Assembly (NCBI RefSeq): GCF_021390675.1
Contig: NZ_JAJEJV010000004.1
Location: 1,054,001 to 1,118,000, forward strand
Reading direction: 5' to 3'
DNA: 64,000 nt
Source: Dyella sp. 2HG41-7
Lineage (GTDB): Bacteria > Pseudomonadota > Gammaproteobacteria > Xanthomonadales > Rhodanobacteraceae
A program made the translations under genes and the position numbers. Each line of letters opens with the position of its first letter. The first letter of the stretch is position 1. The notes beneath the pieces are model-generated. The model had not been told where the DNA came from and made no database searches. It was given only the letters and a program-made list of their open reading frames with translations. Shown piece by piece: positions 54,650-59,792 of this stretch.

Positions 54650-54670
54650 GTCGTCGTCATCGACGCATGC

Positions 54671-54699
54671 AAAAAGGCCGCGGCAACGCGGCCTTTTTG
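54671..54699 (+). terminator. Terminator after sucD
   Basis: A 12-bp perfect stem, AAAAAGGCCGCG (54671-54682) with CGCGGCCTTTTT (54687-54698), and a GCAA tetraloop. The T-tract is part of the stem. Confidence 0.93.
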
Positions 54700-54817: not shown

Positions 54818-55795
54818 ATGACCGCTTCGTCACGTCCGCCGTTCTTGTATCCGCCCGGCTCGCCGTTGATGCATCCGCCGCTCGCGCTGCAGAAGGCGCG
54901 TCTGTACGGTTTCTGGGTGCCCGGCGATTTAAATGCGTTGCAAAAGAGCATCGATCGCACGCTCAACGATTGCAGTCGCGGCGACATGCACTTCGCTGTG
55001 CTTACGCATTACGTGTTGCTGAGTTTTGCCGAGATCCGCCACGCGCATAGCGCATATCCCGTCGATGTGGTGAAGGGTTGGGGGAAGGAAGTCGACATCG
55101 TTACTTGGGTGATGGTGGGCGCGACCAAGCCGGGCGAGGTGTTGCCGACGTTTTACGCGTATCCGTTGCACATTTGGGTCGACGACGCTATGGCGTTGAT
55201 CAACGGTCGCGAGTTGTACGGCTATCCGAAATACGACTGCTTGTACGCCATGCCGAATCCGGACGAACTGCCCACCACGTTTCGTCTCGCGGCCAAAGGC
55301 TTTCAACCGTTTTCGCCGGAATCCGAATTGGCGATGCATCCCTTGCTCGATCTGGATGCGTTGCCCGGCTTGCTCGATGAGCCCACGAAAGATGTGCTTG
55401 CGTGGCGCGAAGGGTTGGTTGCGGCCATGCATGAAACGCCGGGTTTCTGGGATACGCATCCGGCGTGGCGCAAAACCTTCGACAAATGGTTCGAATTTTT
55501 TCCCGGCGTCGATCAGATCTTCCTCAAACAATTTCCCGACGGCACCGGGCATCGCGCGGTGTATCAAGCCATTGTCGCCGCACCGGCCAAAGTCAAAGAA
55601 ATTCGCGCGCTCGCGCTCTTGAGCGGTCGCTACGACATGCGACTGCATCCCTTCGACAGCTTTCCGCTCGATCGAACGCTGGGCTGGAAGGTTGGGTTGC
55701 AGCAAGCGCATTGCGGCTTTCGCATCGATTTCGATTTTGAGGTCGGCGAGGGCGTCGAGTTGGTCGATAACTCCATTCGCAAGGAGCACGATTGA
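54818..55795 (+). CDS. Acetoacetate-decarboxylase-like protein
   Basis: A 325-residue protein of the acetoacetate decarboxylase superfamily. Start ATG 54818, eight bases after GGGGGG; a GTG at 54809 is possible. The family motif NGRELYGYPKYDCLY aligns with the Schiff-base region of ADC: Lys138 matches the catalytic Lys, but the neighbouring second Lys of the clostridial enzyme is Tyr139 here. It is longer than classical ADC (about 245), with extra sequence around residues 180-240 (WREGLVAAMHETPGF). It shares the TGATG junction with the FAD gene. The reaction is unknown; hydrolase-aldolase chemistry is as likely as decarboxylation. Confidence 0.75.
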   Translation: MTASSRPPFLYPPGSPLMHPPLALQKARLYGFWVPGDLNALQKSIDRTLNDCSRGDMHFAVLTHYVLLSFAEIRHAHSAYPVDVVKGWGKEVDIVTWVMVGATKPGEVLPTFYAYPLHIWVDDAMALINGRELYGYPKYDCLYAMPNPDELPTTFRLAAKGFQPFSPESELAMHPLLDLDALPGLLDEPTKDVLAWREGLVAAMHETPGFWDTHPAWRKTFDKWFEFFPGVDQIFLKQFPDGTGHRAVYQAIVAAPAKVKEIRALALLSGRYDMRLHPFDSFPLDRTLGWKVGLQQAHCGFRIDFDFEVGEGVELVDNSIRKEHD

Positions 55796-57978
55796 TGGAA
55801 ACACAACCCGAGCGCATCGCCATTCTCGGTGGCGGTGTAGGAGCGATGACGGCTGCGTTTTGGTTGAGCAGCGTGGAGAACTGGCAAGAGCGCTATCAGA
55901 TCGACGTCTATCAAATGGGTTGGCGACTCGGCGGCAAAGGAGCTAGCGGACGCAATGCAAGCATGGCGCAGCGTATCGAAGAGCACGGATTGCATATCTG
56001 GTTCGGCTTTTACGACAACGCATTTCAACTCATGCAACAAACGTATGCGGAACTCGCGCGTCCTCCCGGCAGCCCGCTGGCGGCCTGGACGGATGCGTTC
56101 AAACCGCAGCATTTCGTTTGTCTCGCCGAACTTATCGAAGCGAGTTGGCGCGTGTGGCCGATCGATACGCCGCAATTGCCCGGCACGCCCGGCATGCCGC
56201 GCGGGCCTGAAACGATCGGCGACATCGTGGGTGAATTGCTGGATTGGCAACGTTCGTGGTTCGAATCCTGGGCGATGACGTTTCTCAAACATGCGGGTTC
56301 GCCCTTTCGCATGGGCGAACATCGTGAAAGTCGATTGCACGATTTGCTGGCGGCAGCGCGCGCCGGCCTGACGGCATACGAAGACGTGGGCGATCCCTTG
56401 ACGGTTGCGCGCAAGGCGAGAGACTTGGCGCGTTCGTCCGCGAAATCCGCGCCGGGCGACGGCGCCGCGGCCGCCGATTGGCCGGCCGTGCTGAAGTTGT
56501 TGCAGGAGCTTCAACACGCTCTGCACGATGTCGCTGCGCCATTTGGCGATCCCGATACCTGGTCCGACGACTGGCGTCGACTGTATTTGGCGTTGGATAC
56601 ATCGTTAGCTGTCGGTGTCGGTATGTTGATGGACGACGTGATCGGAAAGGGTTTCGAAGTCATCAACCACATCGACTTCCGCGCCTGGTTGACGCAGCAC
56701 GGCGCGCAACCAGTCAGCGTGAACGGTGCGCCCGTGCGTGGCTTTTACGATCTAGTGTTTGCCTATCGAAATGGCAATCCCGCACAACCCAATATCGAAG
56801 CCGGCACCATGTTGCGCGGCATGCTCAAAGTGGGCCTGAGTTATCGCGGCGCGTTGATGTACAAGATGCAAGCCGGCATGGGCGATGTGGTGTTTGCGCC
56901 GGTGTACGAAGTGCTCAAGCGCCGTGGTGTGCAATTCCACTATTTCCACAAGTTGTGCGAGTTGCGCCCCGATGCGTCCAATACAAACGTCGACGAGATC
57001 GAATTGGAGCAACAGATTGCGCTGCTCGGCGATAACTACGAGCCATTGGTCGACGTAAACGGGTTGCCATGCTGGCCTTCGCAGCCGTGTTACGAGCAGA
57101 TCGATCCCCGGCAAGCGGCCTTGCTTCAAGCGCATGACGTCAATCTGGAAAGCCATTGGACGAATTGGCCCGACGTGTATCGCCAGGCGACCGGCGCATC
57201 GCTGCCGCATAAAACATTGCGTAGAGGCATCGATTTCGACCACGTGGTGTTCGGTTTGTCGGTCGCGAGCCTTGCTGTGGTGGCGCAGCCTTTGTTGAAA
57301 ATCAGCGATGCGCTGAAGCGATGCAGCGATCACATCGAAGCCGTTGCGACGCAGGCTTACCAGGTCTGGTTGAATCAGGATTTGCAGGGCATCGGCTGGA
57401 GCGATCGCGGCGAAAACGACGAAGAGCCCGTGCTATCGGGATTCACCGAGCCGTTCGACACTTGGGCGTCGATGGATCAATTGCTGTGCCGCGAAACATG
57501 GCCGCCGGATCACACGCCGAAAAACATCGGCTACTTCTGCAACGCGCTGGCGCTCGATAACTATCCGCAGCCTGGAGACAGCGATTTTCCCGCGCGCTGC
57601 GCCACCTTAGTGAAGGCGACGGCGATTCATCAGTTGCAAACGGATATCGGCGCGCTCTGGAGCGAAGTGGGCCATCGGGGATTTCCATGGAACTGGCTGG
57701 TCGATCCTAAGGAAGGCGCAGGTGTAGCGCGCTTCGACAGTCAGTATTGGCGTGCGAATGTCGATCCTTCCGAGCGCTATGTGTTGTCGTTGGTCAACAC
57801 GAGCCAGTATCGATTGCACGCTGATAAATCCGGTTTCGCCAATCTTTTTCTCGCGGGCGATTGGTTGAAAACCGGACTCGACGCGGGTTGCGTGGAAGCG
57901 GCCGTGATGGGGGGTATGCAGGCGAGCAGGGCGATTTGCGGTGTGCCCGCGCACATTCAAGGCGAGCGTGGTTGGTAG
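55795..57978 (+). CDS. FAD-dependent desaturase/isomerase-like oxidoreductase
   Basis: A 727-residue flavoprotein. ATG 55795 shares one base with the stop of the decarboxylase-like gene. The dinucleotide-binding motif IAILGGGVGAMTAAFWL is at residues 8-24, followed by QMGWRLGGKGASGRN, and HGLHIWFGFYDNAFQLM, which resembles phytoene-desaturase and carotene-isomerase relatives. The C-terminal NLFLAGDWLKTGLDAGCVEAA closes the FAD domain. No crtB or other carotenoid gene is nearby. It is larger than typical desaturases (about 500), with an insertion around residues 210-330. The substrate is unknown. Confidence 0.78.
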   Translation: METQPERIAILGGGVGAMTAAFWLSSVENWQERYQIDVYQMGWRLGGKGASGRNASMAQRIEEHGLHIWFGFYDNAFQLMQQTYAELARPPGSPLAAWTDAFKPQHFVCLAELIEASWRVWPIDTPQLPGTPGMPRGPETIGDIVGELLDWQRSWFESWAMTFLKHAGSPFRMGEHRESRLHDLLAAARAGLTAYEDVGDPLTVARKARDLARSSAKSAPGDGAAAADWPAVLKLLQELQHALHDVAAPFGDPDTWSDDWRRLYLALDTSLAVGVGMLMDDVIGKGFEVINHIDFRAWLTQHGAQPVSVNGAPVRGFYDLVFAYRNGNPAQPNIEAGTMLRGMLKVGLSYRGALMYKMQAGMGDVVFAPVYEVLKRRGVQFHYFHKLCELRPDASNTNVDEIELEQQIALLGDNYEPLVDVNGLPCWPSQPCYEQIDPRQAALLQAHDVNLESHWTNWPDVYRQATGASLPHKTLRRGIDFDHVVFGLSVASLAVVAQPLLKISDALKRCSDHIEAVATQAYQVWLNQDLQGIGWSDRGENDEEPVLSGFTEPFDTWASMDQLLCRETWPPDHTPKNIGYFCNALALDNYPQPGDSDFPARCATLVKATAIHQLQTDIGALWSEVGHRGFPWNWLVDPKEGAGVARFDSQYWRANVDPSERYVLSLVNTSQYRLHADKSGFANLFLAGDWLKTGLDAGCVEAAVMGGMQASRAICGVPAHIQGERGW

Positions 57979-57983
57979 CCTGA

Positions 57984-59792
57984 TTACTCGGAGCGCGCTT
58001 CAGGCAGCGCCTGCTCGCTAAGGCGTTCGGTGCGGCGGTACGACTTGTGCGCATACATAGTGCGATCGGCTTGGCGCACCAGCTCGGTGAAATCGGCGCT
58101 GCTGAAACGGCGTTGATCCGGCGGCGCGCTGCATAACCCGAAGCTGATGCCGGCGCCGGGGAAATCGCTGTGGCGCAGCGATTGATCCAGTTCGCCCAGC
58201 GCGCGCGCCAAACGTTGCTGCCCGAGTTCGTCGCCGTAGGCGATCACTGCGAATTCGTCGCCGCCCAGGCGAAAGGCTCGGATCAAGTCGCCCAGGCGCG
58301 CCAAGCCCTCGCCGACGGCGCGCAACAAATCATCGCCTCGTTCGTGACCTTGGCTGTCGTTGACGAGTTTGAGTCCGTCCAGATCGATCATGCCGATCTG
58401 CCAGGTGCCCTGCGCAGGATTGGTGTTTTCGCGGCGCGTGATCTCTTCGACCATCACGTTGAAGGCGAGGCGATTACCCAGGCCCGTCAAGGGATCGATG
58501 GAAGCCTTGGCGATGGCTTCCTGCATGCCGCGGCGAAAGCGCTCGCGGCCGTCTTCGACCAATTTGACATGATCGGCCAACGCGAACGCCAGCAACATCG
58601 CTTCGCACGCATTGCCCATCAATGTTAGCAGATCGGCGTTGTCCACCATGCTGGGAATCAAGCCGAAGTTGACCGGAAGAATGATCACGCCCGGCACCAG
58701 AACCGCCATAAACGCCAAGGTGAAAAAGCGCGCGCGGCGGACGCCTCGCCACAACGCCCACAAACCCATGCCCGCCGAATAAAGCACCACGATCGACACC
58801 GCGAACGTGGCGATAAGAAACGCCAACTTCGGAAAGAGCAGCGATACCGGCAGCGCGATAATGGCCGCCACCGCAATGCCATAACCTACGCGCGCCATCT
58901 GCGGCGCATGCCGACGCAAATCCAGAAAGCGAATCGTAAAGCGCGCATGCACAACGGGAAGCAGAATGAACCACTGCGCGAAGTTGACCGGCTCCGTGTC
59001 GATACCCAGCCAACTTTGCGGCACGCCGAAAAAGAAGCCCCAGCCGGCGACCAGGATCAACGCCTGGCATCCGTAAAGCCGATAACCCTGATCGCGTATC
59101 CACAAACCCACGAACAAAATGAAAATGCCCAGCCCAAACAGCACGCCCAGCGAGCCGAGCATAAGCGCCGATTCATTGGTTCGTCGCTGGTGATATTCGG
59201 CGCGCGTCTGCACGTCGACGCGCGGCATGGCCGTAAAAAACTTGGACGTCACGCGAATCACCACCGCATAGCGATGCCCCGGCGTCAGCGTCACGGCGGC
59301 AACGCCGCGCGGCACTTCGTAGACATCCTGCGTCGCGCCCGTCTCTACGTACTGCTGCGAACCATCGTCGCCCAGCACAAGCATGCGGGCGCTGTCGTAG
59401 TACGTATTGTCGAACGTCACCACCCAGGCGGACGCGGGTTTCGACGGGGTGAAGCGCGCCACCAGCCAGAAATCGCCGCCGAGCATATTGACCGACGGCA
59501 ATGGCGGGCGTGCGGCCAGCCAATGATTCAATTCGGCGTAGCTTTGCGGGCGGGCGTCGTTCACGTCGGCCTGATAGGTGGCGAGCGGCGGCGACTGTGG
59601 CGCGGGACCGAAGAGCTGCAAAGGCCGGGCGTCGACCGGCGTCGGCCGACCGATCAACACGAAAAAGCAAAGCAAAAGGCTGACCAGGCCACGGTCCAGC
59701 GACCGCCGCAACGCGGGTTCCTGCGCGTGCAAGTGACGACGCAAAGCTGCGCCCCTTAGCCAGTCTGCGTCCGGCGATGGTAGCACTGGCAC
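57984..59792 (-). CDS. 7TMR-DISM diguanylate cyclase
   Basis: A 602-residue membrane enzyme that should make cyclic di-GMP. After a signal-anchor (GLVSLLLCFFVLIG) comes an extracellular DISMED2-like beta domain (about 55-190), seven membrane helices (200-400) and a GGDEF domain (DPLTGLGNRLAFN; RLGGDEFAVI). The active-site GGDEF is intact. The product-inhibition site RxxD five residues before GGDEF is absent (those positions are GDLI). The start is uncertain: GTG 59792 lacks a clear ribosome site. It points away from nadE. Confidence 0.9.
   Translation of the reverse strand: MPVLPSPDADWLRGAALRRHLHAQEPALRRSLDRGLVSLLLCFFVLIGRPTPVDARPLQLFGPAPQSPPLATYQADVNDARPQSYAELNHWLAARPPLPSVNMLGGDFWLVARFTPSKPASAWVVTFDNTYYDSARMLVLGDDGSQQYVETGATQDVYEVPRGVAAVTLTPGHRYAVVIRVTSKFFTAMPRVDVQTRAEYHQRRTNESALMLGSLGVLFGLGIFILFVGLWIRDQGYRLYGCQALILVAGWGFFFGVPQSWLGIDTEPVNFAQWFILLPVVHARFTIRFLDLRRHAPQMARVGYGIAVAAIIALPVSLLFPKLAFLIATFAVSIVVLYSAGMGLWALWRGVRRARFFTLAFMAVLVPGVIILPVNFGLIPSMVDNADLLTLMGNACEAMLLAFALADHVKLVEDGRERFRRGMQEAIAKASIDPLTGLGNRLAFNVMVEEITRRENTNPAQGTWQIGMIDLDGLKLVNDSQGHERGDDLLRAVGEGLARLGDLIRAFRLGGDEFAVIAYGDELGQQRLARALGELDQSLRHSDFPGAGISFGLCSAPPDQRRFSSADFTELVRQADRTMYAHKSYRRTERLSEQALPEARSE

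Follow-up and report, generated by a model that had tools for sequence, protein, structure and literature searches.

Analysis of a 64,000 bp stretch of the Dyella sp. 2HG41-7 genome (contig NZ_JAJEJV010000004.1, positions 1,054,001 bp to 1,118,000 bp; hereafter the window) revealed two overlapping genes, one encoding an enzyme with the acetoacetate decarboxylase (ADC) fold and the other a phytoene-desaturase-like flavoenzyme, which are accompanied by the gene of a 7TMR-DISM receptor. That the ADC gene and the flavoenzyme gene form one coupled unit is strongly supported, and linkage to the receptor was found in 14 of 18 genomes. The reading we favour, with a confidence that falls just short of evenly balanced, is that the locus is a rare and patchily distributed module in which a bifunctional enzyme makes or converts a lipophilic, perhaps isoprenoid-like, compound that is sensed by the adjacent receptor. 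Genomes and loci are referred to below by G and L numbers respectively, the window genome being G000.

Relatives of the window flavoenzyme were identified by peptide patterns drawn from it, which favours close relatives, and 24 flavoenzyme loci were found in this way among 84,980 species genomes. At 23 of the 24 an ADC homologue adjoined the flavoenzyme or was encoded in the same open reading frame (ORF). Fusions accounted for 14 loci, 12 of them in the order ADC-FAD (1029–1071 amino acids as called; FAD, for flavin adenine dinucleotide, denotes the flavoenzyme part) and two, both from Thermoleophilaceae (Actinomycetota), in the reverse order FAD-ADC; the remaining paired loci (n = 9), Dyella and similar bacteria, encoded two separate genes. 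Within the window's family, the flavoenzyme query and the ADC profile matched the identical six of 147 genomes and none else. The preliminary description of the window had proposed that the two enzymes are coupled, which the fusions and this shared occurrence bear out, and had held that the genes standing apart in most genomes would speak against it; in the window's clade this is not the case. No ADC was detectable alongside the flavoenzyme, however, in one close relative, the Massilia locus L020, or in the more distant L042, L043, L046, L058 and L059.

The flavoenzyme family was rare, being present in 5/398 Pseudomonadota, 3/369 Gammaproteobacteria and 3/337 genomes of a second class, and in 5/12 genomes of the window's genus. 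The locus without ADC among the 24, L020 of Massilia cavernae, encoded the flavoenzyme between 7977 bp and 10,070 bp with no adjacent receptor and formed a long branch inside the fused clade; ADC and receptor were probably lost jointly here. Plasmid records extended the picture. The pair was present as two genes in Catenovulum; in Azospirillum the flavoenzyme and ADC genes were annotated with a 4-base overlap, their cluster also containing a FadL-type channel and another flavoenzyme; and in Qingshengfaniella the flavoenzyme carried a divergent ADC-like tail. The FAD-ADC tails of L040 and L044 bore only a weak likeness to ADC (hhalign probability 51, E 1.5e-4; the Lys was aligned), and the ADC-like genes of L045 were divergent and several genes away. 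The deep part of the flavoenzyme tree, in which branches were long, was poorly resolved.

The receptor gene of the window exceeded the Pfam cut-offs for 7TMR-DISMED2 (24.1 bits; cut-off 22), 7TMR-DISM_7TM (88 bits; cut-off 29) and GGDEF (72.3 bits; cut-off 23.8), and the GGDEF motif was intact in its translation. In these domains it resembles the 7TMR-DISM diguanylate cyclases, and synthesis of cyclic diguanylate (c-di-GMP) is predicted from the sequence; it differs from them in its membership of a separate subfamily that accompanies the enzyme pair. A 7TMR-DISM gene adjoined the pair at every one of the 12 ADC-FAD fusion loci, as well as in those Rhodanobacteraceae that were examined for it (the window, G518, G432, G498, G519 and G529). 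The output domain was GGDEF at 10 of the 12 fusion loci, while at L010 and L023 the same sensor was joined to HisKA-HATPase-receiver-Hpt. Searching 18 whole genomes for DISM_7TM returned 38 copies, zero to six in each; one copy adjoined the pair in 14 of the 18, and in five of these 14 (G1193, G1194, G1198, G1199 and G1202) it was the sole copy. No DISM_7TM was found in 14 well-known control genomes. Assuming two neighbour positions and approximately 0.9 genes/kb, chance adjacency would be at most 0.002 per genome. The earlier statement that the pair has no metabolic neighbour stands insofar as the succinyl-CoA synthetase and NAD synthase genes nearby do not recur beyond Rhodanobacteraceae, but it overlooked the conserved, non-metabolic receptor gene. 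Likewise, the suggested two-enzyme pathway is strongly supported in its coupling but was drawn as free-standing, leaving out the linked receptor and signalling genes. In two related genomes (L012 and L026) a second, unrelated-looking 7TMR-DISM-GGDEF gene was present approximately 5 kb past the linked receptor on the same contig.

Table 1. Features of the pair, the receptor gene and the upstream repeat, numbered from the first nucleotide of the window.
Feature	Position (bp)	Strand	Remarks
Terminator-like repeat (perfect inverted, T-tailed) separating sucD from the pair	54670-54699		Repeat search
ADC-fold enzyme gene	54818-55795	+	325 amino acids from ATG; frame open back to GTG 54809
Codons of the Schiff-base Lys (residue 138 from ATG) and the following Tyr	55229-55234	+	Homologue alignment; Lys codon 55229-55231
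TGATG stop-start overlap of the ADC and flavoenzyme genes	55793-55797	+	Read directly; stop TGA 55793-55795, start ATG 55795-55797
Phytoene-desaturase-like flavoenzyme gene	55795-57978	+	727 amino acids; NAD_binding_8, weak HpnE/carotene desaturase matches, model
7TMR-DISM receptor gene with GGDEF (diguanylate cyclase) output	57984-59792	-	Pfam; convergent with the flavoenzyme gene at a distance of 5 bp

The pair-linked receptors are one subfamily with a swappable output domain. A sensor profile built from nine linked sensors scored at least 199 bits on all 14 linked sensors, whereas 15 of the 16 unlinked sensors reached at most 46 bits or gave no match, L099 being the exception; the test covered 30 of the 38 DISM places, the other eight being all unlinked. 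As the profile seeds were linked members, the five linked sensors that were not seeds (L084, L088, L096, L098 and L100) constitute the fair test, and these scored 199–308 bits. In the sensor tree, the 14 linked sensors and one unlinked sensor, L099, were split (100/99) from the three unlinked sensors placed in it (the tree was built without two short unlinked sensors, L102 and L110, and ten unlinked rows lacking a match, and the L009 receptor lay outside the check). The two sensors with kinase output (L010 and L023) fell among the GGDEF receptors. Of the 147 family genomes, seven contained a sensor homologue scoring above 350 bits, namely the six with the pair and G408, and the runner-up scored 98 bits (Fisher p 5.5e-10 for co-occurrence of sensor and pair, with kinship not corrected for), and the only strong homologue among 369 Gammaproteobacteria was that of the window genome. 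A metagenome-assembled genome assigned to Deinococcales (L018, 5293 bp–10,133 bp) encoded the fused enzyme and the receptor, the latter on the opposite side of the pair, and both fell inside the proteobacterial clades of their trees; this may be explained by passage of the module from one phylum to another or by a wrongly binned contig.

The gene pair itself was as previously described with regard to its coordinates, shared direction and TGATG overlap, the last base of the ADC stop codon being the first of the flavoenzyme start codon. Comparison with relatives showed the ATG of the ADC gene to be a better start than the upstream GTG. Both genes were present in one copy in the window genome. 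The ADC ORF passed the Pfam ADC family (PF06314; 32.4 bits, cut-off 29.8) and the flavoenzyme ORF contained the dinucleotide-binding motif NAD_binding_8 above its cut-off. The observation that both proteins are enlarged held true, with 325 amino acids against 244–266 in solved ADC-fold chains and 727 against 466–472 in rice phytoene desaturase. Sequence searches of solved structures gave no match, and the folds of the two proteins were compared by AlphaFold2 models.

The model of the ADC protein (predicted local distance difference test (pLDDT) 83.9) had 20 Foldseek matches with E < 0.001, all of them ADC superfamily chains, including ADC, MppR, Swit_4259 and the Streptomyces bingchenggensis aldolase-dehydratase. 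VIA Z was 16.6–19.3 for these entries (19.3 to 3c8w), followed by a drop to 6.2. The window protein shares with the superfamily its fold, the PF06314 match and the position of the Schiff-base Lys, and differs from solved members in its length, in an identity of only 12–17% and in being coupled or fused to a flavoenzyme. In classical ADC, a second Lys adjacent to the Schiff-base Lys lowers the pKa of the latter. The preliminary description had noted that the active-site Lys is kept and its neighbour replaced by Tyr, and the alignment agreed with this: the Schiff-base Lys was kept in 27/27 ADC homologues, and the residue following it was Tyr, Phe, Thr, Ser or Met but never Lys. As the second Lys is missing, a classical acetoacetate decarboxylase, and with it acetone formation, was rejected.

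For the model of the flavoenzyme (pLDDT 82.7) the closest match was rice phytoene desaturase (5mog; E 2.4e-12; template modelling (TM) score 0.74 by target length), followed by amine oxidases; a fold in common does not by itself show function. The best sequence profiles were hydroxysqualene dehydroxylase HpnE and zeta-carotene desaturase, but the protein scored far below the equivalog cut-offs for HpnE (TIGR03467; 43.6 vs 283.05 bits) and for phytoene/zeta-carotene desaturase (TIGR02731, 15 vs 569.4 bits; TIGR02732, 40.5 vs 622.15 bits), and for this reason identity with HpnE or with phytoene or zeta-carotene desaturase proper was rejected. It also exceeded 5mog by approximately 260 residues and contained an extended helical stretch around residues 141–320 of the model. 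The dinucleotide-binding positions and the C-terminal positions that we take to be a flavin site were invariant or nearly so in the alignment.

More remote members of the flavoenzyme family were often found beside signalling genes of other kinds. Guanylate_cyc-AAA_16 proteins adjoined the flavoenzymes of L040, L044 and L057, and STK-AAA_16-GAF proteins those of L042, L041 and L043, where the terminal part was respectively a cyclase, a histidine kinase and a histidine kinase with receivers. The neighbours elsewhere were a PAS-histidine kinase (L059), a winged-helix/TPR regulator (L046) and, two genes away, a receiver-HD protein (L060) and a cyclic-nucleotide-binding protein (L058). At 14 loci that lack an adjacent DISM gene, the two nearest genes on each side (51 in all; L025 was omitted as its contig is short) were compared with 140 of 282 control genes from other stretches of 10 surveyed genomes, the first and last gene of each stretch being dropped. 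AAA_16 was present in 6/51 neighbours and Guanylate_cyc in 4/51, each against at most 1 in 140 controls (Fisher p at worst 0.0016 and 0.019 respectively), while Response_reg (4/51 vs 3/140) was in no clear excess. Genes around the loci were called with a home-made caller, which missed the Crp gene of L040. No signalling gene was directly beside the flavoenzyme at L039 (Catenovulum), L024 or L045, nor among the three nearest genes at L024 (Thermoleophilaceae); L039 is counted here because the 'diguanylate cyclase' approximately 2 kb upstream has no Pfam match.

Two of these remote loci showed a different partner. A protein family encoded between 14,195 bp and 15,148 bp of L042 and between 8282 bp and 9193 bp of L043 (41% identity over 256 amino acids) took the place of ADC; that of L042, a Bacteroidota plasmid, had no Pfam match and that of L043, a gammaproteobacterium, no NCBIfam match, and both loci encoded large STK-AAA_16-GAF kinases. 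In L057 (6108 bp–17,459 bp) two flavoenzyme genes flanked an ADC gene; behind them lay genes for a carotenoid oxygenase (RPE65) and a class III cyclase-AAA_16 protein. This cluster is the strongest natural clue to the substrate.

Taken with the phytoene desaturase fold and the L057 cluster, the occurrence of squalene/phytoene synthase (PF00494) in 21/24 flavoenzyme genomes, against 7/14 control genomes, makes an isoprenoid-type substrate plausible. The polyene, sterol-like or aromatic compound suggested in the preliminary description is thereby weakly supported in its polyene or isoprenoid part. A strict requirement for squalene or phytoene was rejected because 3/24 genomes lack PF00494. In the mechanism we propose, the pair would act as one bifunctional enzyme unit, consisting of two proteins in the window and of a single chain in many bacteria. 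The flavoenzyme would probably oxidise or desaturate a long hydrophobic, perhaps isoprenoid, chain, after which the Schiff-base Lys of the ADC-fold part may act on a carbonyl by decarboxylation, retro-aldol cleavage or aldol-dehydration. The periplasmic/7TM part of the receptor would sense the product or substrate and the GGDEF domain would set c-di-GMP, a phosphorelay taking its place in two relatives. A module for synthesis and reception of a signal is the most likely form of the locus, and since no catabolic genes were found to recur beside it outside Rhodanobacteraceae we favour a compound that the cell makes itself. Possible too, although we are doubtful of it, is that the locus represents a new signalling class, in which the fused ADC/phytoene-desaturase-fold enzyme would produce an apocarotenoid- or oxidised isoprenoid-like signal for the 7TMR-DISM subfamily and remote relatives would feed other outputs (class III cyclases, STK-AAA-GAF kinases and phosphorelays).

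Several observations weigh against a lipophilic compound made by the pair for the receptor. No DISM gene was adjacent in four of the 18 flavoenzyme genomes: the contig of G585 ends inside the fused gene, G719 and G356 are distant branches of the flavoenzyme tree, and G1197 is a Massilia genome without ADC beside the flavoenzyme. Squalene/phytoene synthase was absent from G719, G1194 and G1198. The unlinked sensor that grouped with the linked ones, L099, is a second receptor copy in the Deinococcales genome with no pair nearby. In G408 the pair was absent from between a transporter-like gene and the receptor, the gene order being otherwise as in G518, and the receptor was kept at 69% identity, less conserved than most of its neighbours (L124:8928-8955). 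No exporter for a signal was found next to the pair. Finally, DISMED2 is predicted in the literature to sense carbohydrates (PMC8846402), which would be a poor fit with a lipid.

The locus could instead be a catabolic or detoxifying module for an external hydrophobic compound, for example of plant, fungal or algal origin, the presence of which the receptor reports via c-di-GMP. A patchy and rare distribution, a sensor domain that is periplasmic and faces outward, and the FadL-type channel gene of the Azospirillum cluster would suit such a role, but outside Rhodanobacteraceae the pair was not found to have recurring neighbours for uptake, CoA ligation or beta-oxidation, and the output is mostly c-di-GMP rather than a transcription regulator; we consider this unlikely. 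Lower still is the probability we assign to a pigment or membrane-lipid pathway, in which the product would be an isoprenoid or polyene with a structural or protective role and the signalling proteins would do no more than sense envelope state or stress. The fold of the flavoenzyme, the frequency of squalene/phytoene synthase and the carotenoid oxygenase gene of L057 all point in that direction; however, the synthase is missing from three genomes, further carotenoid or hopanoid genes were not found as recurring neighbours of the pair, and the receptor is one dedicated subfamily.

That the pair belongs to ordinary specialised metabolism, with the receptor a functionally unrelated travelling companion, appears improbable. 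Linkage in 14/18 genomes with varied surroundings, against the low chance adjacency calculated above for an assumed gene density, is difficult to attribute to joint travel, even if a module that moved between phyla (L018 in the proteobacterial clade) may carry its genes jointly and G408 keeps the receptor alone. The sensor was, moreover, kept while its output domain was swapped, and unrelated signalling genes lie beside remote flavoenzyme relatives. Those same signalling neighbours, and the unrelated protein family in the place of ADC in L042 and L043, would be compatible with a fused protein that is itself a sensor or binding protein and, instead of making a compound, passes its flavin redox or ligand state straight to the signalling protein. 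Very little probability attaches to this, as the Lys was kept in every aligned ADC homologue, the presumed flavin-site and dinucleotide-binding positions were (nearly) invariant and DISMED2 is located outside the membrane.

The region upstream of the pair (50,690 bp–54,699 bp) encoded a sensor histidine kinase on the reverse strand, followed by sucC and sucD, and ended in the terminator-like repeat. A scan for consensus terminators and promoters did not report the repeat and found no promoter. Downstream there was an NAD synthase gene. Cooperation of the pair with sucCD or NAD synthase was rejected, because this gene order recurs only within Rhodanobacteraceae and the repeat separates sucD from the pair.

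If the proposed reading is right, the locus would resemble the diffusible signal factor (DSF)/Rpf quorum sensing system, both combining an enzyme that handles a lipophilic compound with a neighbouring receptor that influences c-di-GMP. It differs in its enzyme folds and receptor type. The pair does not belong to the RpfF-type enoyl-CoA hydratase synthases, its families being ADC and NAD_binding_8, and no RpfF-type gene was annotated directly beside it. A Legionella cluster in which ADC and adenylate cyclase genes occur among others (PMC5413113) is a different set. No curated name was found for the fused enzyme family. The suggestion that the pathway may be undescribed agrees with a search of the open-licence literature, in which no title or opening of an abstract described the pair or its receptor link and no pathway was assigned; subscription papers and preprints lay outside this search, and a description elsewhere is possible.

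An enzyme pair dedicated to one receptor subfamily offers a direct handle on the ligand of that receptor, for which, in the case of DISMED2, a review offers a prediction (PMC8846402). Should the compound be a signal, a synthase-receptor system with unfamiliar chemistry would be added to those known; should it be a substrate, it would reveal both the ligand of the receptor and the function of the fused enzyme family.

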